Shown here in pieces: positions 3,043 to 13,150 of a stretch of 64,000 nucleotides of DNA. The stretch comes from Leucobacter sp. cx-328 (GTDB lineage Bacteria; Actinomycetota; Actinomycetes; Actinomycetales; Microbacteriaceae). Within the stretch, counting starts at the first letter, position 1. Every line of letters begins with the position of its first letter. A program made the position numbers and the translations under genes. The DNA lies in NCBI RefSeq assembly GCF_014530035.1, contig NZ_JACVMX010000002.1:124001-188000 (forward strand), read 5' to 3'. The notes beneath the pieces are model-generated. The model was not told the origin of the DNA. It was given only the letters and a program-made list of their open reading frames with translations, and did not search any database.

Positions 3043-3540
3043 ATGACCCTAGAAAGTAGCCCCGCCCAGCGGGCACAATTTGGTAAGCCGACGAGTGCGT
3101 TCATCGGCGCATCATGGGCCGCGCTGGCGCTCGGCATCGTCGTGTATTTCGTGAGTCTGTGGCGGGCAGACATGGAGCCTTTTGAGAAGGGCTTCTTCCT
3201 TGGCGCGTTCTTCTTCGGTGTCGTGAGCGCGGTCGGGCTGCAGAAGTCGGTCCGCGACCGTCACGAGGGCGTACCCGTGACCTCGCTGTATCTCGGCGTT
3301 TCGTGGCTTGGCCTCGGCCTGAGTATTGTGCTGCTCACGTGGGGCCTGTGGAAGAGTCCGCTCCTGCCGAGTGAGAACGGACTGTACGGCATGACCTTTG
3401 CGATGACAGTGTTTGCGGTCACGGTCGTGCAGAAGAACGTGCGCGACCTCATCGCATACAAAGCGCAGCACCCTGAACTGTACGGGCCTGACGCGATCGA
3501 AGCGAGACGGCAGACTGCGGAGCGGGGTGCGAGTGACTAA
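3043..3540 (+). CDS. YiaA/YiaB-type integral membrane protein
   Basis: 165 residues with two repeats of the YiaAB two-helix unit: about 20-75 (KPTSAFIGASW then LQKSVRD) and about 82-140 (TSLYLGVSWLGLG then VQKNVRD). That gives four membrane helices, each pair closed by a Q-K-x-V-R-D turn. The family is found in the cytoplasmic membrane and has no known activity. An AGGAG ribosome site lies 8-12 bases upstream of the ATG. The 3' end overlaps the convergent selB stop by four bases (3537-3540), leaving no room for a separate terminator. Confidence 0.85.
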   Translation: MTLESSPAQRAQFGKPTSAFIGASWAALALGIVVYFVSLWRADMEPFEKGFFLGAFFFGVVSAVGLQKSVRDRHEGVPVTSLYLGVSWLGLGLSIVLLTWGLWKSPLLPSENGLYGMTFAMTVFAVTVVQKNVRDLIAYKAQHPELYGPDAIEARRQTAERGASD

Positions 3541-5432
3541 CGCCGCGCAACCTCACGGAGCGTGCCATCAACCCGTCGCGTCCAGCCCTTCGCATCGAGT
3601 AGCTCAAGCAGCGGAATCGCTACGCGTCGCGTGGTGTCGAGCGCCTGCCGCGCCTGGCTCGTTGTAAACGGCTGGGGCAGCGCTGCGAGCCGTTGCATCG
3701 CGAGCGCGGGTGCCTGTGGCAGCAGAATGACTCCGTCTGAGAGTCTGATCACTCGTCCCGCACGCTCTGCGGTCGCGAGCTCTTTCGCCCCAAGCTTGAG
3801 GCGCGCGAGGTCGTCGGCCTCCGGAGCCGCGAACGGCTGCGTGCGAAGGCCACGTTCCAGCGCGGCCACGCCCTTCTCAGCTGGGCCGAGATCGATGGTC
3901 GCGCCGGGCTCGCGCAGCACGCCACCGGTTGACTCAAGCTTCGCGTGGTGCGCGACGAGCGGGAGGAGCGAAGCGTCGGGCATCGTCGGCGCGTCCGCCG
4001 ACGTGCCTGGTGCTGCGCCAGCCGGTGCATCAGCGCGCATGAGCGCGTCGCGTGCTGCGCCGTGAGGGAGGCCAGGGCTGAGCGGGTCATGTTTGCGTTG
4101 CTGAGTGACGGCCTGCCGAAGTCGCTGCACCCAGGCGGTGAGAGCAGGGCCGTGGATCCACCAGCGAATCTCGCCGATCCGTACCTCACGCAGGCGCTCT
4201 TCGTGTGATGCGTCTGGCGCAAGCTGCGGCACGGTCGCAAGTGAGGCGTGTCCGAAACGCTCCAATTCGGTGACCCGAATAGCGCCGCGGCGGCGAACGT
4301 CTGCGAGGGGCGATCCGCCTACTGGCAGGGCCGCAAGCGCGGTCGCCCGTGCGCGGCCAGCGCCACGGCGGCCAAGCTCCGGCGGCTCGAGATCGAGCAC
4401 GGTAGCGCCGGCGAATACCGATCGGCTACCGGGCGCCCTGAGTACGAACCGGTCACCGAGTTCGAGGGGGAGTACTCGCTCCAGAGTGAGGCGTGCGTGG
4501 TCGTCATCGAAGGGGCGCACGCGCGCGGTCACGGCGGCGGTACCGATGTGGACATTGAGCTCCTGCGGGCCATCGGCGAACGGCTGGCCCATGGTGCGGC
4601 GCACGTCGATCTGGTCCACAAGACACCAGGCATCGGGGGTGACCAATGCGTCACCGCGGCCGATTGCACCAGCGACACCGTCTCGCAGGTTCACCGCGAC
4701 GCGAGCGTACGGAGCAACGCGGTCGGCTGCCGCGTTCTGGCTGTGGAGTCCGCGCACCGAGGTGTCTTGGATCCCAGACTCGCTGACGACGGTGAGCGCA
4801 TCGCCCTTGGCCAGCGCGCCTGCCGTGAGGGTGCCGGTCGCCACCGTGCCGGAACCCTTGACCGTGAACGCGCGATCCACCCACAGGCGCACGCGGGTGT
4901 CGGTGCGCGGAGCGGGAGCGTCCGCGAGCACAGCGTCGAGCGTTGCTAACAGCTCAACGGTGCCGGTTGGTGCCGTGCCGCCGCCGGGAATCCCGACGGG
5001 CACGATCGGTGCCTCTGCCAGGGGAGTGCCCTCAAACTCGGCGCGGATCGCCGCAGCGACCTCAGCTACCTGTTCGGGGGCGCGATCCGCCCGTGTGATC
5101 GCAAACACCGCCCGCGAGAGTCCGAGCGCCGCCACCGCATCGCGATGATCGGTGGACTGAGCCTGCCAGCCTTTGTCTGCCGCAACGACGAACAGCACGA
5201 CCGGCGCCGGGCCAACGCCCGCGAGCATGTTGCCAAGAAACCGCTCGTGACCAGGCACATCGACGAATGCGAGGTCACGGCCGGAAGGCAGGGTGGTCCA
5301 TGAAAACCCGAGGTCGATGGTGAGTCCGCGGCGCTGCTCTTCTGCGAGGCGGTCCGTCTGCATGCCAGTGAGAGCGTGCACGAGGGTGGACTTGCCGTGG
5401 TCTACGTGTCCGGCGGTAGCGACAACGTACAT
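3537..5432 (-). CDS. selB: Selenocysteine-specific elongation factor SelB
   Basis: 631 residues. The GTPase G1 motif GHVDHGKS is at residues 8-15, G3 DVPGHE near residue 58, and a TRAD motif stands in the G4 position, as in SelB rather than EF-Tu. EF-Tu-like barrels follow, then C-terminal winged-helix repeats (last 200 residues) that bind the SECIS hairpin. SelB delivers Sec-tRNA(Sec) to the ribosome at UGA codons. The ATG lies 2 bases after the selA stop, so selA and selB form one operon with the tRNA-Sec gene in front. The client in this window is fdhA. Confidence 0.95.
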   Translation of the reverse strand: MYVVATAGHVDHGKSTLVHALTGMQTDRLAEEQRRGLTIDLGFSWTTLPSGRDLAFVDVPGHERFLGNMLAGVGPAPVVLFVVAADKGWQAQSTDHRDAVAALGLSRAVFAITRADRAPEQVAEVAAAIRAEFEGTPLAEAPIVPVGIPGGGTAPTGTVELLATLDAVLADAPAPRTDTRVRLWVDRAFTVKGSGTVATGTLTAGALAKGDALTVVSESGIQDTSVRGLHSQNAAADRVAPYARVAVNLRDGVAGAIGRGDALVTPDAWCLVDQIDVRRTMGQPFADGPQELNVHIGTAAVTARVRPFDDDHARLTLERVLPLELGDRFVLRAPGSRSVFAGATVLDLEPPELGRRGAGRARATALAALPVGGSPLADVRRRGAIRVTELERFGHASLATVPQLAPDASHEERLREVRIGEIRWWIHGPALTAWVQRLRQAVTQQRKHDPLSPGLPHGAARDALMRADAPAGAAPGTSADAPTMPDASLLPLVAHHAKLESTGGVLREPGATIDLGPAEKGVAALERGLRTQPFAAPEADDLARLKLGAKELATAERAGRVIRLSDGVILLPQAPALAMQRLAALPQPFTTSQARQALDTTRRVAIPLLELLDAKGWTRRVDGTLREVARR

Positions 5433-5434
5433 GG

Positions 5435-6904
5435 TTAGGCGGCGGGCTCGGTCTCGACTGCGCGCAGCACCGCGATGATTGCGGCCGCGAGATCAGTATC
5501 TTGGTGCGGTGGGACGCAGCGCAAATCAATCAGACAGTTGCCCTGAGCCGTGCGGGGAACGACCGCGGTCGCACCCGCGCGGAGCGGTGACGCACAGTGT
5601 TCGGGGAGCGCGAGTGCCCAGCCGGGCAGCGGGACGCCCGGGGCTCCGCCGCCACCGACGCGGCCGTCGTGCGGCACGACCTCGAATGTACGCCCGATCG
5701 CCTCGGCAACCGCCGTGGCAAGCGCCTCAACACGAGTGCGTAGCTCGGAACGTTTCACGTGCAACGCTGCCTGGACCGGGGTTTCCGGGCCGCGGAGCGT
5801 CGCCTCGAGCGCCGCGAGCGCGAGCTTGTCGACGCGCACAGCCCGCGCCAGCGGGTGCTTCGCGAGCTGCCCAATCGCCGCCTTCGTGCCGTAGAGAATG
5901 CCAGCCTGCGGGCCACCGAGTAGCTTGTCGCCGCTCGCAATCACGATGTCAGCGCCAGCCTGAAGGGCCGCGGTGATGTCGGGTTCGTCTGGAATTACAG
6001 ACTCGGGGTGGATGAGACCGCTGCCGAGGTCGACGATGAGGGGGATCCGCGCCCCGTTTGCCCCGCCGTCAGCGCCGCCAACAGCCGCGTGCGCATCGAG
6101 CAACGCACGCAATTCGGCAACCTCGACGCCCGAGGTGAATCCCTCGACTCTGAAGTTGCTCGGATGTACCTTCAGCACGCAGCCGACGCCCGCGCCGAGC
6201 GCACGCTCGTAGTCTGCCGGGTGCGTGCGATTCGTTGCGCCGACCTCGCGCAGCCGCGCGCCGGTCGTTTCCATGAGGTCAGGCAGGCGGAACCCCGCAC
6301 CAATCTCCACGAGTTCACCGCGGCTCACGACAATGTCGCCCACGGTGCCGGGCGTGCGCGGATCAGCCCCAACGCCCAACGCCGTCACCGCCAAGAGCAG
6401 TGCGGCGGCACCGTTGTTCACAACGAGCGCGTCCTCCGCAGCAGGGCAGGCTTCGAGGAGGGCGGCCTTCGCGCCGAGTCCGCGGCCGCTGCGCTGGCCC
6501 GTGCCGAGGTCCATCTCGATGTCAGCGTAACCCGCGGCCCGCGTCACCGCGCGGATCGCGCCCTCCGACAGGGGAGCGCGGCCGAGGTTCGTGTGGATGA
6601 TGACGCCCGTCGCGTTGATGACCGGGGTGAGTGTTGCGGGCGAGGCCGCCGCGAGTGCTTCGACGACAGTGTTGCTCACAGCATCTGGCGTGATTTCTCC
6701 CGCGCGAGCTCGCGCCTGTGCGTCCGTGATGATCGCGCGAATCGCCTGCTCGCCAAGCCACGTGCGTGCGTCCTCGACCGCTGGCAGCGCGAGGAGCTGA
6801 TCCGTGCGCGGGATGCGGCGGCGCGGGTCGGTGCCCGTGGCGGTGCTCGTGCTCGCGCCAGCGCGCGCTCCGGTGCTCGACTCAGTGTTCGTCGTCGTGC
6901 TCAT
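5435..6904 (-). CDS. selA: L-seryl-tRNA(Sec) selenium transferase SelA
   Basis: 489 residues. This PLP enzyme converts seryl-tRNA(Sec) to selenocysteinyl-tRNA(Sec) using selenophosphate. The PLP lysine sits in SGDKLLGGPQAG, and the N-terminal part shows VINATGVIIHTNLGRAPL, a SelA signature. I place the start at the ATG at 6904, with AAGGTGG 10 bases upstream. The open frame continues further upstream, but that part is antisense to, and identical in position with, the tRNA-Sec gene and cannot be coding. The first ~30 residues are a Ser/Thr/Ala-rich low-complexity leader. It is followed directly by selB. Confidence 0.95.
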   Translation of the reverse strand: MSTTTNTESSTGARAGASTSTATGTDPRRRIPRTDQLLALPAVEDARTWLGEQAIRAIITDAQARARAGEITPDAVSNTVVEALAAASPATLTPVINATGVIIHTNLGRAPLSEGAIRAVTRAAGYADIEMDLGTGQRSGRGLGAKAALLEACPAAEDALVVNNGAAALLLAVTALGVGADPRTPGTVGDIVVSRGELVEIGAGFRLPDLMETTGARLREVGATNRTHPADYERALGAGVGCVLKVHPSNFRVEGFTSGVEVAELRALLDAHAAVGGADGGANGARIPLIVDLGSGLIHPESVIPDEPDITAALQAGADIVIASGDKLLGGPQAGILYGTKAAIGQLAKHPLARAVRVDKLALAALEATLRGPETPVQAALHVKRSELRTRVEALATAVAEAIGRTFEVVPHDGRVGGGGAPGVPLPGWALALPEHCASPLRAGATAVVPRTAQGNCLIDLRCVPPHQDTDLAAAIIAVLRAVETEPAA

Positions 6905-6969
6905 TCGCTCGCCACCTTGCGGTCGATGATCCGCGCCCCGCGAAAGCGGCACCGGAACCGGGATAAAAC

Positions 6970-7064
6970 TGGCGGAAGCGGACGGGAATCGAACCCGCCA
7001 AACCGAGATACTCGGTTTCACCGGTTTTGAAGACCGGGGGCACCACCAGGAACCAGACGCTTCC
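6970..7064 (-). tRNA. selC: tRNA-Sec(UCA)
   Basis: A 95-nt tRNA read from 7064 down to the CCA at 6972-6970. The acceptor arm is GGAAGCG with CGCTTCC, and the anticodon stem CCGGT/ACCGG carries a TCA anticodon at 7030-7028 that reads UGA. A long variable arm (GAAACCGAG/CTCGGTTT) and a GCGGGTTCGATTCCCGT T arm follow. The length and UCA anticodon are diagnostic. It lies 66 bases upstream of selA on the same strand and 56 bases from the divergent selD start. Confidence 0.95.
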
Positions 7065-7120
7065 ACTGAGGATCCTACACACCCTCGCGGGTTGCCCGCG
7101 CCGCCCGATAGGGTCAAGGC

Positions 7121-8113
7121 ATGACTGTTAATGGGGACAACATTCGACTGACCGGCTTTGCACACGGTGGCGGCTGCGCCTGCAAGATTCCGCCGGGAGA
7201 GCTGGAGAATGCGGTTCGCGGTCTGGTTGGCCAGACAGCGCCGAACGTCCTAGTCGGCCTCGATGACGGGGACGACGCTGCCGCCGTCCTCGTGCGCGAC
7301 GACCTCGCGGTGCTTTCGACCGCAGATTTCTTCACTCCCGTTGTGGACAACGCTTACGACTGGGGGCGGATCGCAGCAGCAAACGCGCTCTCCGACATCT
7401 ACGCGATGGGCGGCACCCCGATCACCGCGATTAACCTCGTCGGTTGGCCCCGCGAGAAGCTCCCCATGGAACTCCTCACCGAGGTTCTCCGCGGCGGACT
7501 CGACGTCGCAGCCGAGGCCGGCTGCCCCGTCACCGGCGGACACTCCGTCGATGACCCCGAACCCAAGTACGGCATGGCGGTCACCGGCGTCGCCGACCCG
7601 CAGAAGCTCATGCGCAACGACGCGGCCGTCGCCGGCCTGCCCATTACGCTCACGAAGCCGATCGGCGTTGGCGTGCTGAACAACCGCCACAAGCAGACGG
7701 GCGAGCGCTTCGAGCACGCGATCGCGAACATGACCCAACTCAACCGCGATGCCGCGGCCGCTGCGGTTGCTGCTGGCGTGCGGGCCGCGACGGACGTCAC
7801 CGGCTTCGGCCTCCTGGGTCACCTGTACAAGATGTGTCGCGCCTCCGGCGTTGGCGCGACCCTCGACATGAGCGCGATTCCGCTGCTCGACGGCTCGCGT
7901 TCATCCCTGGAAGAGGGCTTCGTTCCCGGCGGATCACGTCGCAACCTCGACTGGGTTCGCCCGCACCTGACCGCAGACGCTGGCATTACCGAGGACGACC
8001 TCATCTTGCTCGCCGATGCCCAGACCTCGGGCGGGTTGCTCGTGGTGGGTGAGATTCCCGGGCATCCCGTGATTGGTGAGACCACGGCGGGGAGCGGGAT
8101 CCGCGTCCGCTAG
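7121..8113 (+). CDS. selD: Selenide, water dikinase SelD (selenophosphate synthetase)
   Basis: 330 residues. SelD makes monoselenophosphate from selenide and ATP, the selenium donor used by SelA. The catalytic segment is AHGGGCACKIPP: the active-site position is Cys 19, with Lys 22 following, so this is a Cys-type enzyme rather than a selenoprotein. The ATP-site glycines (VTGGHSVDDPEPKYG) and the TDVTGFGLLGHL block are intact. The ATG at 7121 is preceded by an AAGG ribosome site. It is transcribed away from tRNA-Sec-selA-selB, so the 56-base gap 7065-7120 must hold both promoters. Confidence 0.96.
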   Translation: MTVNGDNIRLTGFAHGGGCACKIPPGELENAVRGLVGQTAPNVLVGLDDGDDAAAVLVRDDLAVLSTADFFTPVVDNAYDWGRIAAANALSDIYAMGGTPITAINLVGWPREKLPMELLTEVLRGGLDVAAEAGCPVTGGHSVDDPEPKYGMAVTGVADPQKLMRNDAAVAGLPITLTKPIGVGVLNNRHKQTGERFEHAIANMTQLNRDAAAAAVAAGVRAATDVTGFGLLGHLYKMCRASGVGATLDMSAIPLLDGSRSSLEEGFVPGGSRRNLDWVRPHLTADAGITEDDLILLADAQTSGGLLVVGEIPGHPVIGETTAGSGIRVR

Positions 8114-8203
8114 CCGCGCCCACACTGCCCGCCCCGCGCCCGGCTCGCCGCTGCTCGGCCCTGCCTTGCTCGGCCCGGCCTCCCCGGGCGACCCATTTCT
8201 CCT

Positions 8204-8273
8204 CGGTCAGAGATCGAGCGTCGGTAAGACGAATTCGGGCTTAAACGCCCTACCGAAGCTCGATCTCTGACCG
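8204..8273. repeat. Family 1 palindromic repeat, copy A
   Basis: An imperfect inverted repeat of about 70 bp: GGTCAGAGATCGAGCGTCGG on the left and CCGAAGCTCGATCTCTGACC on the right, one mismatch across 22 bp, with a centre containing GACGAATTCGGGC. It lies between the convergent selD gene and the bacteriocin-locus permease and may act as a two-way terminator. Copies are at 13035 and 37231, with degenerate ones at 21039 and 44913. Confidence 0.85.
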
Positions 8274-8300
8274 TAGCGAACAGGTCAGGGGAGGATCGTG

Positions 8301-9398
8301 CTACTCGCGCTGCTTGAAGTAGATGAACAGTGCCCGCTCGCGGATCGTCACCGTCGCAACCACCACCCCAGCGAGCGCGCCAGCAGCGCCCAAGCCGATG
8401 ACGCGTGCGGCGATGCCGAGCAGGCTACCCACGTCGTCGGGGTAGTAGCCCGCGAACACAGCGGTGGCGCCAAACGTCACGCCGCTCGCGAGCACCACCC
8501 AGACGGACTGCTGCAGCAGCTGCATCCGCGTGAGAGCTCCGCGGCCCACACCCGCGTGCTGCGCGGAAGCAAGTTCCAGCCGCCGTGACCGCACCGCGAA
8601 GACCCCGATCGCCGCTCCCGCGATGAGTGCGAGGTATGGGTCGAACCGGCTCATGCGGCTCGAAAACATCGCAGCACCGTCGAAGGTGCGCCCGAGCGTG
8701 GTGTTGAGCTGGCTCAGATCGGGGGACGGGGCGTCGGGCTTATCCGCGGGGATGACGACCGAGTGCAGCAACCCGTTGACCTCGGGGAGCTCCGGCCAAG
8801 ACTTTACCCAGCACTCGTCGTAGGGCTCGGAAGACGTCGGCTCTGGCATCACCACCGCGAAGCCGTACCCGGCCATGCGTCCGTCGTCGGGGTACGGGAA
8901 GACCCCCGCAATCACGAGCTCATCTGGCTCACCGGGAAGCGTCTGCAACCCCTCGCCGAACTGGTCGAGCACCTGGCTGCCGACGAAGACGCCGGTGTCT
9001 GATCCGCCAGCCCCGCCAGCACCGCCACCCGGTCGCTCAACCCCGAGCACCTGCTCGATCCCTGGCGTCGCAACGTACTGCGACAGCGGAACCGATCGCA
9101 TCGTCGTCGCCCGAAACTGCCCGGGCAGCTGCCGCACCGCAGCGGCAGTGACGTCGTAGTTGTCGGCGAGCGCGACGCAGGCAGCGCCGTCGACTCGGCC
9201 CGCGGATGACACAATCCGCACATTCGCGCCCGCCTGTTGGAACTTCTGCGCCGCATCAATCACCGCCGCGACCGACGACACCTCGTGCGCGGTGAGCAGC
9301 CCGAGCACCGCGAGGTACACGAGGAAATACAGCAGGAGTTTCGACGTCCCTGTGCCGACATCGCGCGCGGCCTCACGCAGAACTGCGGCGGCCCTCAC
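8301..9398 (-). CDS. FtsX/MacB-like ABC transporter permease of the bacteriocin locus
   Basis: 365 residues. One membrane helix near residues 19-40, then an extracytoplasmic domain of roughly 200 residues with a Gly-rich loop, then three C-terminal helices (about 260-280, 305-325, 335-355). This one-plus-three layout is that of MacB/FtsX-type permeases, which drive extracytoplasmic work rather than moving substrate across the membrane. The GTG start overlaps the ATPase stop (GTGA). It is much shorter than the long integral membrane proteins (DUF1430) usually seen with lactococcin 972. A role in bacteriocin release or self-protection is inferred from its place as last gene of the bacteriocin operon. 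Confidence 0.72.
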   Translation of the reverse strand: MRAAAVLREAARDVGTGTSKLLLYFLVYLAVLGLLTAHEVSSVAAVIDAAQKFQQAGANVRIVSSAGRVDGAACVALADNYDVTAAAVRQLPGQFRATTMRSVPLSQYVATPGIEQVLGVERPGGGAGGAGGSDTGVFVGSQVLDQFGEGLQTLPGEPDELVIAGVFPYPDDGRMAGYGFAVVMPEPTSSEPYDECWVKSWPELPEVNGLLHSVVIPADKPDAPSPDLSQLNTTLGRTFDGAAMFSSRMSRFDPYLALIAGAAIGVFAVRSRRLELASAQHAGVGRGALTRMQLLQQSVWVVLASGVTFGATAVFAGYYPDDVGSLLGIAARVIGLGAAGALAGVVVATVTIRERALFIYFKQRE

Positions 9399-10048
9399 TC
9401 TGGCACCGCCGCAAACTCGGCAAGGTCGACGATGCGGTCGCAGGCCGCCGCGGTGTCGGGGTCGTGGGTCGCGATGAGCACGATTCCGCCAGCGCTCCCG
9501 ATCGACGCAATCGCGGCGTTCACCGTGGCCGCGCTCTGCCGGTCGAGCTGCGCGGTCGGCTCATCGACGAGCAGCAGGTCAGGCTTCACCGCGAGGGCAC
9601 GCGCGAGCATGAGGCGCTGCGCCTCGCCGCCAGACAGCATCGAGAACGGTCGCCGATCGCTGAGGTGCGAAAGCCCCACGACTGCGCAGATGTCGGCGGC
9701 TTCGGTGTCGGCGTCAGCGATCCGCGCACCTGCCGCAAGCAACGGCAGCGCAACATGATCGATCGCGGCCCGCCGCGCGACACCGTGCGGATTCTGAAAC
9801 ACCCACTGCACCCGCGCCAGCCCCGCCTGTTCGATGGAGCCCTCCGTCGGAGCGAGCCACCCGGCCACGATCGACAGCAGCGTGCTCTTTCCGCTGCCGC
9901 TCGGGCCAACGATGGCGCAGCGCTCACCGCCGGAAAACTCCGCTGAAAGCTCACGAAACAACCACGGGTTCGCGTCACTAAATCGCTGCCCCAACCCGCA
10001 AAACCGCAGCGACCGGCTCCCCAGCCCCGCGTTCACTACGTCGCGCAT
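9395..10048 (-). CDS. ABC transporter ATP-binding protein (LolD/MacB-like) of the bacteriocin locus
   Basis: 217 residues, a complete nucleotide-binding domain. Walker [10 protein letters not shown] is near residue 48, the Q-loop is in VQWVFQNP, the signature LSGGEAQR near residue 138, Walker B LLLVDEP near 158 and the H-loop ATHD near 194. The family partners FtsX/MacB-like permeases, and here the permease starts inside its stop codon. Its own ATG lies 13 bases inside the end of the adaptor gene, so adaptor, ATPase and permease are translationally coupled. The substrate is not shown by the sequence; the bacteriocin is the obvious candidate. Confidence 0.9.
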   Translation of the reverse strand: MRDVVNAGLGSRSLRFCGLGQRFSDANPWLFRELSAEFSGGERCAIVGPSGSGKSTLLSIVAGWLAPTEGSIEQAGLARVQWVFQNPHGVARRAAIDHVALPLLAAGARIADADTEAADICAVVGLSHLSDRRPFSMLSGGEAQRLMLARALAVKPDLLLVDEPTAQLDRQSAATVNAAIASIGSAGGIVLIATHDPDTAAACDRIVDLAEFAAVPE

Positions 10049-11124
10049 GTGCGGTCCGTAGATTTCGGCACGTCAACGCGTGTGGGCAACGCTGCCTCGG
10101 CGTCCACAGGCGTGAAGTAGGTCTTGCCGAGCCGCGACCCAACAATGTTGATGGCGAAGCTGGCACCCTGCGCGGTCAGACAGCCGCCCGATTCGCTCAC
10201 GCCAAACACGGCGGCGGGCGGCACCGCACTCACCGCCGAGTTTTCCACCAGCGCGAGCACGCCTGGCGCGCTCGGTTTCTTCGAGTCATTTGAATTGGCG
10301 AATCCCATCCCGCCACCGTCCGTTTCCTCAGTGCCGCGCGAGTAGACGCCCGAGAGCTCGAGGAGCGCCGCGGCGTCAGTCATGACCCCGGACTCATCGA
10401 CGGGAACTGTCACGCCAGACACCTTAAGGATGCGGGCGCCGGGCGCGAGGTCGAGCGGAAGGGCCTCGATCCGCGCACTCGTCAGGGCGCCCTTCACCTT
10501 GCCGAATTCCGCGCCAGCTTCGACCGTGGCGCCCACGGCCGCGGAGCAGCTCCGCATCGTCACCTCGGGAGCTGGAAGCCACATGATCCGCTCGCTCGGC
10601 ACCGCCTCAAGCTTGGGCAGATCGTCTTCATCGACGTCCGGGTTAAGCTTGCGCGCGACTGCTTCGAGCACGGCATCATTCACTTTGCCGGTTGAATTGA
10701 GATCGGCGCCGAGCCTGGCCAATTCGACGCGGATCGCGTCAACGTCAGCACCCTCCGACTCGGGCGTGAGGCTCTGCCAGAGCGGGGTCGACGTGTGCAG
10801 CGCGAGGATGGGCTGGCCGTCAACGCTGGCAACGAGTTGGCCTGATTTCAGGGTGCTGTTGTCCGCGCAAGCGCTCTTCGTGACGCGGCCCCCACTTGGC
10901 AGCGTGAGTAAGGTGTCGTTACCCGCGTCAAACGCGACCTGTACGGTGCGAGCGTCGTCGAACTCTGCGGTCTCGACGGCGAAGGATTGCGCCGCGGTCG
11001 CAGGCTGCAGGGTTGCGGGCGGTCGTGGCGGCAGCAGGTACTGCCCGCCGACCGAGCCTGCCAGAACGACAAGAACTGCGGCGATCGCCAGACCTACGAA
11101 GAGACCGGTTCGTTTCTCAGTCAC
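10036..11124 (-). CDS. Membrane-anchored adaptor (HlyD/peptidoglycan-binding-like) of the bacteriocin locus
   Basis: 362 residues from a GTG at 11124, preceded by GAGGGA at suitable spacing. An N-terminal membrane anchor (residues 7-28, LFVGLAIAAVLVVLAGSVGG) is followed by an extracytoplasmic domain. Within it, VDAIRVELARLGADL and DAVLEAVARKL resemble a peptidoglycan-binding-1 fold inserted in a membrane-fusion-like protein. Four or more cysteines (CADN, RSCS, GGCL, DRTC) suggest disulfides. The GTG lies 8 bases inside the end of the upstream lipoprotein gene. It probably forms a MacAB-like assembly with the next two genes. A longer upstream frame exists but overlaps the lipoprotein gene. Confidence 0.72.
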   Translation of the reverse strand: MTEKRTGLFVGLAIAAVLVVLAGSVGGQYLLPPRPPATLQPATAAQSFAVETAEFDDARTVQVAFDAGNDTLLTLPSGGRVTKSACADNSTLKSGQLVASVDGQPILALHTSTPLWQSLTPESEGADVDAIRVELARLGADLNSTGKVNDAVLEAVARKLNPDVDEDDLPKLEAVPSERIMWLPAPEVTMRSCSAAVGATVEAGAEFGKVKGALTSARIEALPLDLAPGARILKVSGVTVPVDESGVMTDAAALLELSGVYSRGTEETDGGGMGFANSNDSKKPSAPGVLALVENSAVSAVPPAAVFGVSESGGCLTAQGASFAINIVGSRLGKTYFTPVDAEAALPTRVDVPKSTDRTCAT

Positions 11125-11755
11125 GGAATGCTCCCTCGGGATCCTTTTCGCAATCCTTCTCCGCCATTGCTGTTTCGAATTCATCAGCAATCGCGTACTC
11201 CGACACCCATGTCTCACGGAACTTTTCGACCGTGTAGTCAGCTGGAACAACACCTGAACGGATCAAACAGGCAGTGATCTCTGCGCTCCGATCATGATTA
11301 TCTGGGTTAGCTTGGATCATGTAATACAGAGAGATGACCTCAAATGCGCCAGTGCTCTTCTCGCACTCGGAAGCGATCCTTTGGTTCTCTTCGGGGTCAG
11401 TGACTGACGCATACTCCAAGGTGTATGAGAGGCCGTTCTCGAAGTCGTCAAACTTGAGCCCGCGTGAGGTTACGCATGATCGGAAGGCTTCGGTGACTGC
11501 CTGTTTCTCTGCTTCGGTGATGACTTCATCGCGCAAATAGTCGCGAATTTCCTCATTCGAAGCGCTCGCGTAAGCTTCTCGGAATTCATCCGCCCACGGC
11601 CCCTTGAAATCAGGCAAATCGGGGACGTGGGAGTAGTCGACTTCCTCTGCACTGTTTTGTTTGCCAGCAGATGCCGTGCCGCTGCACCCGGTCAAGAGCA
11701 GACATGATGTGACCAGGAACGCGAGGATCTCGAGCGGCCTATACTCGCTAGTCAT
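11117..11755 (-). CDS. Lipoprotein, bacteriocin-locus paralogue 2
   Basis: 212 residues from the ATG at 11755. A type II signal peptide ends in the lipobox LLTGC near residue 22, so the protein is lipid-anchored on the outer face of the membrane. The mature part shares a run of blocks with its neighbour: EEIRDYL, EAEKQAVTEAFRSC, FDDF, YASVTDPEEN, SEC, VISLYY, ACLIRS and a C-terminal DPEGAFRD. Four cysteines are conserved between the two proteins. No named domain is recognised. It overlaps the next gene and the previous one by 8 bases each. An immunity role is inferred. The ribosome site at this ATG is weak, in line with coupling to the upstream gene. Confidence 0.7.
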   Translation of the reverse strand: MTSEYRPLEILAFLVTSCLLLTGCSGTASAGKQNSAEEVDYSHVPDLPDFKGPWADEFREAYASASNEEIRDYLRDEVITEAEKQAVTEAFRSCVTSRGLKFDDFENGLSYTLEYASVTDPEENQRIASECEKSTGAFEVISLYYMIQANPDNHDRSAEITACLIRSGVVPADYTVEKFRETWVSEYAIADEFETAMAEKDCEKDPEGAFRD

Positions 11756-12389
11756 TGAACGACCCGATTGGATCGGCTGTGCATGTGTTGTAAGCAGCCC
11801 AGGCTTGAACCTCGTCCTTGAGGAATAATCCTGCAAAAAGGTCGCTCTTGCTTGGGTCGATCGTGAACTCTGGTGGAACTGTTTTGGACCGGATCATGCA
11901 TGCGGCAATTTCTTCGCTGAGATCCTTGTTCCCGGGATTGCCTTGAATGTGGAAGTAGAGGCTTATGACCTGATCAACCCCGGTGCTGGCCTGGCACTCA
12001 TTGGTGATGAGGTTGGCCTTATCTGGATCCGTTACAGACGCAAAGCCAAAGCCGAAAGAGCCGTCGTTGTTGAAATCATCGAACGTGAGCCCTTGCGAAG
12101 TAAGACAATTTCGAAATGCTTCAGTGACGGCTTGCTTCTCAACCTCGGTGATTTCTTCGTTTCGGAGGTACTCACGAATTTCGTCAGTAGGTGCGGATTC
12201 AAATGCCTGACGAAATTCCTCGGCCCATGGCCCTGAGAACTTCGGTGTTTCAGTGGTTTCTTTGGCTTGCGAGGTTTCGGAACTGGGTGTGGGCTGGCTG
12301 CAGGAAGTTAGGGCGGTTATACAGCACACCATCGAAGCCAACAGTCTCAGTGTTCTAGACGATTGTTGCTTACTAGAATTTTGGGCCAA
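11748..12389 (-). CDS. Lipoprotein, bacteriocin-locus paralogue 1
   Basis: 213 residues starting at a TTG (12389-12387) with an AAGGA ribosome site 7 bases upstream. The signal peptide ends in a lipobox-like LTSC near residue 30. The mature domain matches its downstream neighbour block by block (WAEEFRQAFESA, DEIREYL, EVEKQAVTEAFRNC, FDDF, FASVTDPDK, NEC, VISLYFHI, ACMIRS, ADPIGSFND), so the pair arose by tandem duplication. The four shared cysteines may form two disulfides outside the cell. It follows the bacteriocin gene after a hairpin. Its function is unknown; candidate immunity or accessory protein. Confidence 0.72.
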   Translation of the reverse strand: MAQNSSKQQSSRTLRLLASMVCCITALTSCSQPTPSSETSQAKETTETPKFSGPWAEEFRQAFESAPTDEIREYLRNEEITEVEKQAVTEAFRNCLTSQGLTFDDFNNDGSFGFGFASVTDPDKANLITNECQASTGVDQVISLYFHIQGNPGNKDLSEEIAACMIRSKTVPPEFTIDPSKSDLFAGLFLKDEVQAWAAYNTCTADPIGSFND

Positions 12390-12415
12390 TTATCTATCCT
12401 TACGAAAACGGGGGA

Positions 12416-12440
12416 GCCCCGGCCCTTTTGAGGCCGGGGC
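12416..12440 (-). terminator. Hairpin between bacteriocin gene and downstream operon
   Basis: A perfect 9-bp GC stem (GCCCCGGCC at 12416-12424 with GGCCGGGGC at 12432-12440) and a 7-base loop, 7 bases after the bacteriocin stop. The T run on the minus strand is broken, so it may be a leaky terminator or an mRNA end stabiliser that gives more bacteriocin message than transporter message. Confidence 0.7.
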
Positions 12441-12447
12441 GTTGCGA

Positions 12448-12774
12448 TCAGTAGACGTAGTAATAAGCGCGGTTCGTCACCCCGAATAGTGCGCCTGTCG
12501 CTTGAACAGCGATATATGCGGTTTTTCCGGGAGCCATGTCCAATGAGCGAACACAACCACGTTTGTTGCAAGCGGTTGAACGGTGCTTCTTCCTAGGATG
12601 GTCGTACTTCGAAAAGACAAAGATGGTGCTCGAAGGTTCAACAAACCCATAACGCCAGGTGCCCCCTTCCGGGTACTTCACAACGGCCGAAGCCGCCGAG
12701 ACGCCACCAAACACCGAGGTACCAACGAGGACGAGACCTGCCATGAGCGCAGTGATTCGCTTCTTCTGTTTCAT
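12448..12774 (-). CDS. Lactococcin 972 family bacteriocin precursor
   Basis: 108 residues. A Sec signal peptide (KQKKR, hydrophobic core, ending SAASA near residue 30) leaves a mature peptide of about 78 residues. It opens YPEGGTWRYG and ends NRAYYYVY, with SKYDHPRKKHRST in the middle. The EGGTWxYG start, the KYDH...KHRST block and the aromatic C-terminus match lactococcin 972, a bacteriocin that targets lipid II. Unusually it has two cysteines (ACNKRGC), which lactococcin 972 lacks. The ATG is preceded by AAGGGA, 7 bases away. Two lipoproteins, an adaptor, an ATPase and a permease follow on the same strand. Confidence 0.85.
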   Translation of the reverse strand: MKQKKRITALMAGLVLVGTSVFGGVSAASAVVKYPEGGTWRYGFVEPSSTIFVFSKYDHPRKKHRSTACNKRGCVRSLDMAPGKTAYIAVQATGALFGVTNRAYYYVY

Positions 12775-12908
12775 GTGTTCACTCCCTTGCGAACGTGTGG
12801 ATATGAAAACCTCGAGGGCTGTCGATATTCCTCCCGTTTACACGCCCGATCAATGGGGTGACGTGCGATGAACCGGAGTTCGGCCTGGAGTGGCAAAAGA
12901 TGACGAGA

Positions 12909-12948
12909 AGTGGGCGGATCGGGGCAGCGAGGCACCGATCCGCCCACT
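12909..12948 (-). terminator. Large hairpin downstream of the formate dehydrogenase operon
   Basis: AGTGGGCGGATCGG (12909-12922) pairs perfectly with CCGATCCGCCCACT (12935-12948) across a 12-base loop. On the minus strand TTCTCGTCATCTTTT follows, a weak T tail, so termination is likely but not certain. Confidence 0.6.
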
Positions 12949-13034
12949 GGCACAGGGAAACGAAAGAACCCCTGAGGCCGAAGCTTCGGGGGTTCATAGC
13001 TGGGGGTCTGGGCGCCCGACACAGCGTTCGCGTG

Positions 13035-13103
13035 GGTCAGAAATCGAGCGTCGGTAAGGCGAATTCGGGCAAAAACGTCTTACGGAAGCCACTATTTCTG
13101 ACC
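13035..13103. repeat. Family 1 palindromic repeat, copy B
   Basis: A 69-bp imperfect palindrome: GGTCAGAAATCGAGCGTCGG left, ATTTCTGACC right, with the centre GGCGAATTCGGGC also present in copy A at 8204. The right inner arm has diverged (GGAAGCCACT). It lies between nrfD and the bacteriocin promoter. Confidence 0.8.
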
Positions 13104-13150
13104 GAGGCGAAATGGGCCGGGGCGCGAAGGGGGCGCGAGCGCGCCCAGCA

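Follow-up and report, generated by a model that had tools for sequence, protein, structure and literature searches.

A lactococcin-972-type operon of Leucobacter with tandem lipoproteins and a MacAB-like pump: a probable bacteriocin-and-immunity cassette

Six genes on the minus strand of a 64,000-nucleotide stretch of the Leucobacter sp. cx-328 genome (contig NZ_JACVMX010000002.1; G000:C6:124001-188000 in a 2.6 Mb assembly; the whole stretch is called the window below) run from position 12774 down to 8301 and encode, in that order, a lactococcin-972-type precursor, two lipoproteins, an adaptor, an ATP-binding cassette (ABC) ATPase and an FtsX-type permease. An earlier note, made from the sequence alone, had read them as an operon; all six genes are indeed present, and chance open reading frames (ORFs) are ruled out since many other genomes carry these genes in an identical arrangement. 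We judge it rather probable that they form a bacteriocin-and-immunity cassette, combining a Sec-secreted bacteriocin, lipoproteins that confer cognate immunity and a MacAB-like trio acting as a general peptide-clearing pump. The peptide would leave the cell via Sec and kill as a bacteriocin. The lipoproteins, on the outer face of the membrane, would capture the cell's own peptide and be the specific part of immunity, changing with the mature peptide. The adaptor-ATPase-permease trio, its adaptor resting on the peptidoglycan, would then drive membrane-, lipid-II- or lipoprotein-bound peptide outward from that face.

The separation between a specific and a general part is best seen in a relative, G310 (locus L185), where the operon occupies the same site as in the window. 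At the amino acid level, the flanking genes are nearly identical (nrfD-like 99.7%, fdhB 99.7%, selD 99.4%) and the pump is close (permease 96.4%, ATPase 94.0%, adaptor 90.9%); the lipoproteins, three genes versus two in the window, are 45-61% identical. Within the precursor, the signal peptide is the same at 30 of 30 residues, with a proportion of synonymous differences (pS) of 0.04; the mature peptide is identical at 47 of 77 residues (61%), the other 30 being changed, with a pS of 0.84. For 175 bp ahead of the break the two nucleotide sequences agree at about 99% (at 72-96% between there and the nrfD-like gene). Identity then drops at the codon following ...SAASA, is low across the lipoproteins and rises again around 11150, the start of the adaptor. 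Such a jump in silent divergence is inexplicable by selection on the proteins alone, and the mature peptide and the lipoproteins were replaced together, as one block, by recombination. The break also supports the predicted cleavage point of the precursor, which we had assumed to obey the Ala-X-Ala rule. G310 thus constitutes a natural experiment separating peptide and lipoproteins from the pump, so that one or two constructs would suffice to test immunity.

The same association was found over larger distances. Forty-three complete loci were retained (L115 and L142 having been excluded beforehand), 33 after removal of near-identical permeases. In partial Mantel tests on these 33, with the permease taken into account, the mature peptide correlated with the lipoprotein (r 0.49, none of 2000 permutations being as high), and not with the ATPase (-0.01) or appreciably with the adaptor (0.11, p 0.07). 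When close pairs were removed as well (29 loci, permeases below 63% identity), the peptide-lipoprotein value was 0.40. Peptide divergence tracks that of the lipoprotein beyond the part explained by the permease.

To what extent the peptide is tied to these genes was determined in 299 genomes of the same family, the Leucobacter genome included. Matches to PF09683, the lactococcin 972 family, occur at 42 places in 33 of them, and all 42 loci (window, L003, L033-L072) were annotated, with profiles built from these same loci; an initial scan, whose queries were the window's own two lipoproteins, treated all fetched loci alike. As the earlier note had anticipated, the peptide is linked to the set in related genomes: pump genes were present at 20 of the 42 loci, every one of which has the lipoprotein, and the complete set of peptide, lipoprotein, adaptor, ATPase and permease at 19. 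Locus L036 is decayed, with no ATPase match and a permease split into two pieces. At 16 other loci, another, more distant ATPase lies about 2-2.5 kb on, and none of them has the lipoprotein. In 15 of these (the exception is L033) the peptide is followed by an ORF of 645-737 amino acids, which is the classical layout; five of ten such long ORFs scanned matched TIGR01654 at E <1e-11, all below the cut-off, and none of eight scanned matched Pfam. The lipoprotein set and the classical layout therefore exclude each other. The remaining six loci consist of five with peptide and lipoprotein only (L003, L038, L040, L046, L072) and one, L034, with neither lipoprotein, pump genes nor the other ATPase. 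L003 is the second lactococcin-972-type peptide of the Leucobacter genome itself, with a divergently transcribed lipoprotein gene of the same family (9666-10847 of the locus, G000:C5 about 395665-396843), and has no pump genes within the 19 kb fetched.

To determine the range of peptides found with the set, one genome from each of 84,980 species was scanned with a permease pattern, which gave 127 relatives. The best 80 of these (L073-L152) were analysed, and all are actinobacterial by title (Microbacteriaceae, Actinomycetaceae, Propionibacteriaceae, Nocardiopsidaceae, Micrococcaceae, Cellulomonadaceae, Bifidobacteriaceae, Micromonosporaceae and others). In 68 of the 80 the set begins with a lipoprotein of the family and the upstream region can be judged; eight lie near a contig end and four have no lipoprotein there. 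Of 396 genomes sampled across the phylum one, our own, had the permease, and the distribution of the set is patchy. A small ORF with a Sec-like signal precedes the lipoprotein in 45 of the 68 loci, versus 176 of 1912 random anchors that were not matched for gene starts. A lactococcin-972-type peptide is present at 24 of the 80 loci; at the 44 lipoprotein loci without one, a small secreted ORF was detected in 23, two of which (L090, L111) look spurious. One group of such peptides, F1, covers nine of the 80 loci, namely seven seeds and two recruits with scores of at least 85 bits; in the latter (L143, L146) the peptide is some 2 kb upstream of the lipoprotein. The other, F2, covers eight plus loci of the family sample, was grouped partly by eye, and its profile recruited one independent new member only. 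Neither group was related to lactococcin 972 by profile comparison; the single members L097 and L150 score marginally against it. In other Actinomycetota, then, the lipoprotein-pump set often stands behind small secreted peptides with no or marginal similarity to lactococcin 972. None of the ten partner peptides tested reached the Pfam cut-off, and the module is therefore a hook for secreted peptides that are invisible to profiles. Seven pump-less lipoprotein places were fetched. An F2-like peptide precedes the lipoprotein in two of them (L157, L158), in genomes without a permease match at the threshold used; for the other five (L159-L162, L176) no trustworthy peptide was seen.

Whether these data amount to a platform is in our opinion an evenly balanced question. 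One four-gene immunity module, made of a new cysteine-rich lipoprotein family and a peptidoglycan-binding MacAB-like pump, would serve several unrelated or extremely divergent families of Sec-secreted peptides in Actinomycetota, and new specificities would come about when the mature peptide and the lipoproteins are swapped while promoter and signal peptide stay the same, one of the recombination edges falling at the cleavage codon.

A few variants of the order were noted. In L101, L102, L165, L166 and L167 the adaptor, ATPase and permease come first and the lipoprotein or lipoproteins after the permease. In two Bifidobacterium loci, L119 and L120, the ATPase is on the opposite strand, before the lipoprotein, adaptor and permease. 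The permease of a further Bifidobacterium locus, L134, is 74% identical to theirs and its lipoprotein just about 36%, which is perhaps another exchange.

The features of the operon and of its surroundings are listed in Table 1.

Table 1. Coordinates of the operon genes and associated features in the window
Feature	Coordinates	Strand	Evidence
Lactococcin-972-family precursor, 108 amino acids	12448..12774	-	PF09683 and TIGR01653 matches, 9hkj
GC-rich hairpin, peptide/lipoprotein 1 gap	12416..12440	-	fold -25.5 kcal/mol, z -2.2
Lipoprotein 1, TTG start	11748..12389	-	lipobox LTSC by reading
Lipoprotein 2, paralogue of lipoprotein 1	11117..11755	-	lipobox LTGC by reading; same family
Membrane-anchored adaptor, peptidoglycan-binding-like segment	10036..11124	-	family-level PG_binding_1
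ABC ATPase	9395..10048	-	ABC_tran (PF00005), 97 bits
FtsX/MacB-type permease, 365 amino acids	8301..9398	-	family-level FtsX matches
Palindromic repeat, downstream flank of operon	8197..8280		repeat pattern; 84% identity to other flank
Palindromic repeat, upstream flank of operon	13027..13103		repeat pattern; identity to other flank
Segment missing in relative G313 (empty site)	8119..13150		comparison with G313

The precursor is a clear member of the lactococcin 972 family, as had been claimed, with scores above both curated cut-offs (PF09683, 41 bits for a cut-off of 22; TIGR01653, 37.5 bits for 32.1) and a match to the solved family chain 9hkj at E 3.1e-6. Its one hydrophobic span is N-terminal, in a signal peptide of about 30 residues that ends in ...SAASA and is of Sec type by inspection. 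The mature peptide, of about 78 amino acids, does contain the two cysteines pointed out in the earlier note. The corresponding TAC...C loop is found in 17 of the 20 family peptides with pump genes (L048 and L049 being identical), in three of the five with lipoprotein only (one is a fragment) and in one of the 17 remaining without lipoprotein; in the wider permease scan it is found in 12 of 24 lactococcin-type peptides, so that it is no fixed mark of this layout. Lactococcin 972 binds lipid II.

The five genes after the peptide overlap (by 8 nt for the two lipoproteins, 8 for lipoprotein 2 and the adaptor, 13 for adaptor and ATPase and 4 for ATPase and permease), and the idea of overlap throughout fails at one place, a 58-nt gap between the peptide and lipoprotein 1. 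This sole gap contains the hairpin, which 5 of 200 shuffles equalled in stability. Strong hairpins were called in 10 of 27 homologous gaps versus 6.2 expected from shuffles, by a script that missed the window hairpin; this suggestive excess would fit a role as partial terminator, which we regard as possible.

The two lipoproteins are 46% identical to each other, and tandem copies were seen in 10 of 98 permease loci. Besides the lipobox cysteine, four cysteines are invariant in the family alignment, and a permissive pattern found a lipobox-like motif in 90 of 100 matches. No credible Pfam family was obtained for 28 members scanned singly. The AlphaFold2 model of the 184-residue mature lipoprotein 1 (predicted local distance difference test score, pLDDT, of 91) has a mainly helical domain and a beta hairpin, and found no convincing match in the PDB. 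For the pump, assignments differ in level. The ATPase is plain, its DEPTAQLD motif being invariant in the family alignment, and it is 30-39% identical to the ATPases of classical lactococcin 972 loci. In the adaptor family, PG_binding_1 was matched by 12 of 18 members (best 5.3e-7); when MacA/HlyD-type domains were looked for, HlyD_D23 was matched by one of 18 at E 0.011, and the window adaptor itself had no significant domain match (RND_mfp, E 0.041). The permease is of FtsX/MacB type at the family level only: seven of 18 homologues matched FtsX (best 4e-6), the window protein alone had no Pfam match, and its C-terminal part compared weakly with MacB chains (E 0.17 and 0.36). Of the one-plus-three helices announced for it, one N-terminal and two C-terminal spans were recovered by hydropathy and the third C-terminal span was not called at the threshold used. 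As stated in the earlier note, there is no long TIGR01654/DUF1430-type membrane protein among the six products by profile scan.

Self-protection fits best with the peptide-lipoprotein match, the tandem lipoproteins, the FtsX-type permease and the wall-binding-like adaptor, and the evidence as to the role of the module leans that way, with the lipoprotein as its specific part. Several observations weigh against this reading. The exchange was found in one close pair only, and other close pairs show none (in L081/L086, permease 86%, peptide 96%, lipoprotein 95%). In G310 the pump genes are conserved yet not untouched, their synonymous divergence (dS) being 0.21-0.38 versus 0.10-0.16 for the flanks. 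Raw correlations with the peptide are 0.61 for the lipoprotein, as compared with 0.42 for the adaptor, 0.43 for the permease and 0.35 for the ATPase; given the permease, the lipoprotein also correlates with the adaptor (0.37). The signal peptide correlates weakly with the lipoprotein (0.17, p 0.02). Relatedness among rows makes Mantel tests lenient, and the peptide and lipoprotein genes are adjacent. By the detector used, 21 of the 44 lipoprotein loci without lactococcin 972 have no secreted peptide. The genomes of all five pump-less peptide-lipoprotein loci, for which about 10 kb downstream was seen, have a permease elsewhere (partial in G216), so that a pair working alone is not demonstrated. 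Finally, no relation of the lipoproteins to NisI or SpaI was found.

The trio could instead be a dedicated exporter or release machine that takes over after Sec, detaching the peptide from the membrane and passing it across the wall, while the lipoprotein serves as carrier or chaperone. The permeases found elsewhere in the five genomes whose second peptide-lipoprotein pair is pump-less could then act in trans. MacAB-type pumps collect their substrates at the outer surface of the membrane, and linkage of the trio to secreted peptides is seen in several families. We nevertheless consider such a machine unlikely: the precursor has its own Sec signal, the co-variation with the peptide concerns the lipoprotein and not the pump, the L157 and L158 genomes combine a lipoprotein and a secreted peptide but gave no permease match at the threshold used, and pneumococci lacking ComAB and BlpAB exported a tagged lactococcin-972-type peptide, i.e. 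a related peptide was secreted without dedicated bacteriocin transporters (excerpts of PMC11796350). The distinct export/self-protection module first proposed is thus retained as distinct and as self-protective, its export side being less supported.

A receptor and its ligand would co-vary just like an immunity protein and its toxin, and the function of the partner peptides is putative; the peptide might be a signal released by the cell, or a factor acting on the wall, for which the lipoprotein would be the receptor and the pump the relay. We hold this to be very unlikely. The peptide family includes tested bacteriocins, since streptococcin B (PMC11796350) and Lcn351 (PMC9067509) inhibit bacteria according to excerpts of these reports, there is no regulator among the six genes, and exchange between close relatives together with patchy presence fits weapon-immunity sets. 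Still more improbable is that the set serves envelope stress or peptide resistance in general and merely neighbours secreted peptides: lipoprotein relatives are commoner (52 of 299 genomes) than the pump, scored by its permease, or the peptide (33 each, with differing thresholds), but neither the co-variation nor the excess of secreted ORFs over random anchors, unmatched as these are, would be expected from it. A lantibiotic was rejected, there being no modification enzyme among the six genes, as was the TMcin class, which has another gene set (PMC12328743).

The site of the operon is empty in relative G313 (L186), where selD and the nrfD-like gene are 87 bp apart. It lies within a selenocysteine island (window 3537-8113 and 13151-~18450), whose genes, as read from the sequence, are selB, selA and selD to one side of the operon and an fdh operon to the other. 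Between selA and selD, a selenocysteine tRNA was located at 6970-7064 by ARAGORN, and the frame read as fdhA contains an in-frame TGA ahead of HSATVPSLGASFGRGG, which is what a selenocysteine formate dehydrogenase would show. On both sides of the operon is a palindromic repeat of about 70-84 bp, the flanks being 84% identical over 63 nt; its pattern has 2 matches in the window versus 0.00 expected, and three more, with 3 mismatches, elsewhere in the genome (G000:C6:445787, C6:448411, C10:106984). It is possibly a small mobile or terminator-like element tied to the insertion.

The peptide family is already known, and our literature searches found no description of the lipoprotein family, the shared module or the exchange. 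The gene content itself is not entirely new: the Pep1 cluster of Curtobacterium sp. APC 4022 is listed in PMC10456417 with a lactococcin-972-like peptide, a pair of ABC genes and a pair of hypothetical genes, and so matches the window operon when compared by gene content. That list comes from one genome and is given without interpretation, identity of the hypothetical genes, comparison or other peptide families. The classical lactococcin 972/streptococcin B locus (peptide, long membrane protein, ATPase), whose immunity and transport roles are described as predicted and unverified in excerpts of PMC11796350, shares with the window operon the peptide family, Sec secretion and a nearby ABC ATPase; it differs in having a long (~650-740 amino acids) TIGR01654-type protein instead of lipoproteins, a peptidoglycan-binding-like adaptor and a separate FtsX-type permease. 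A precedent for a peptide-binding lipoprotein with a clearing ABC pump is NisI with NisFEG (PMC8538875). For this system, as for SpaI with SpaFEG, the likeness is in the job only: the window lipoproteins have no detectable relation to NisI or SpaI, the pump is of FtsX type with an adaptor, and no modification genes are among the six. In the YknWXYZ set of Bacillus, YknW stands in place of the lipoprotein, and the genes are presumably not encoded together with the toxin gene. YknWXYZ is nonetheless a Gram-positive MacB-like set directed against a self-made peptide toxin, as the window pump would be, shielding Bacillus from its own SDP toxin (PMC4887032).

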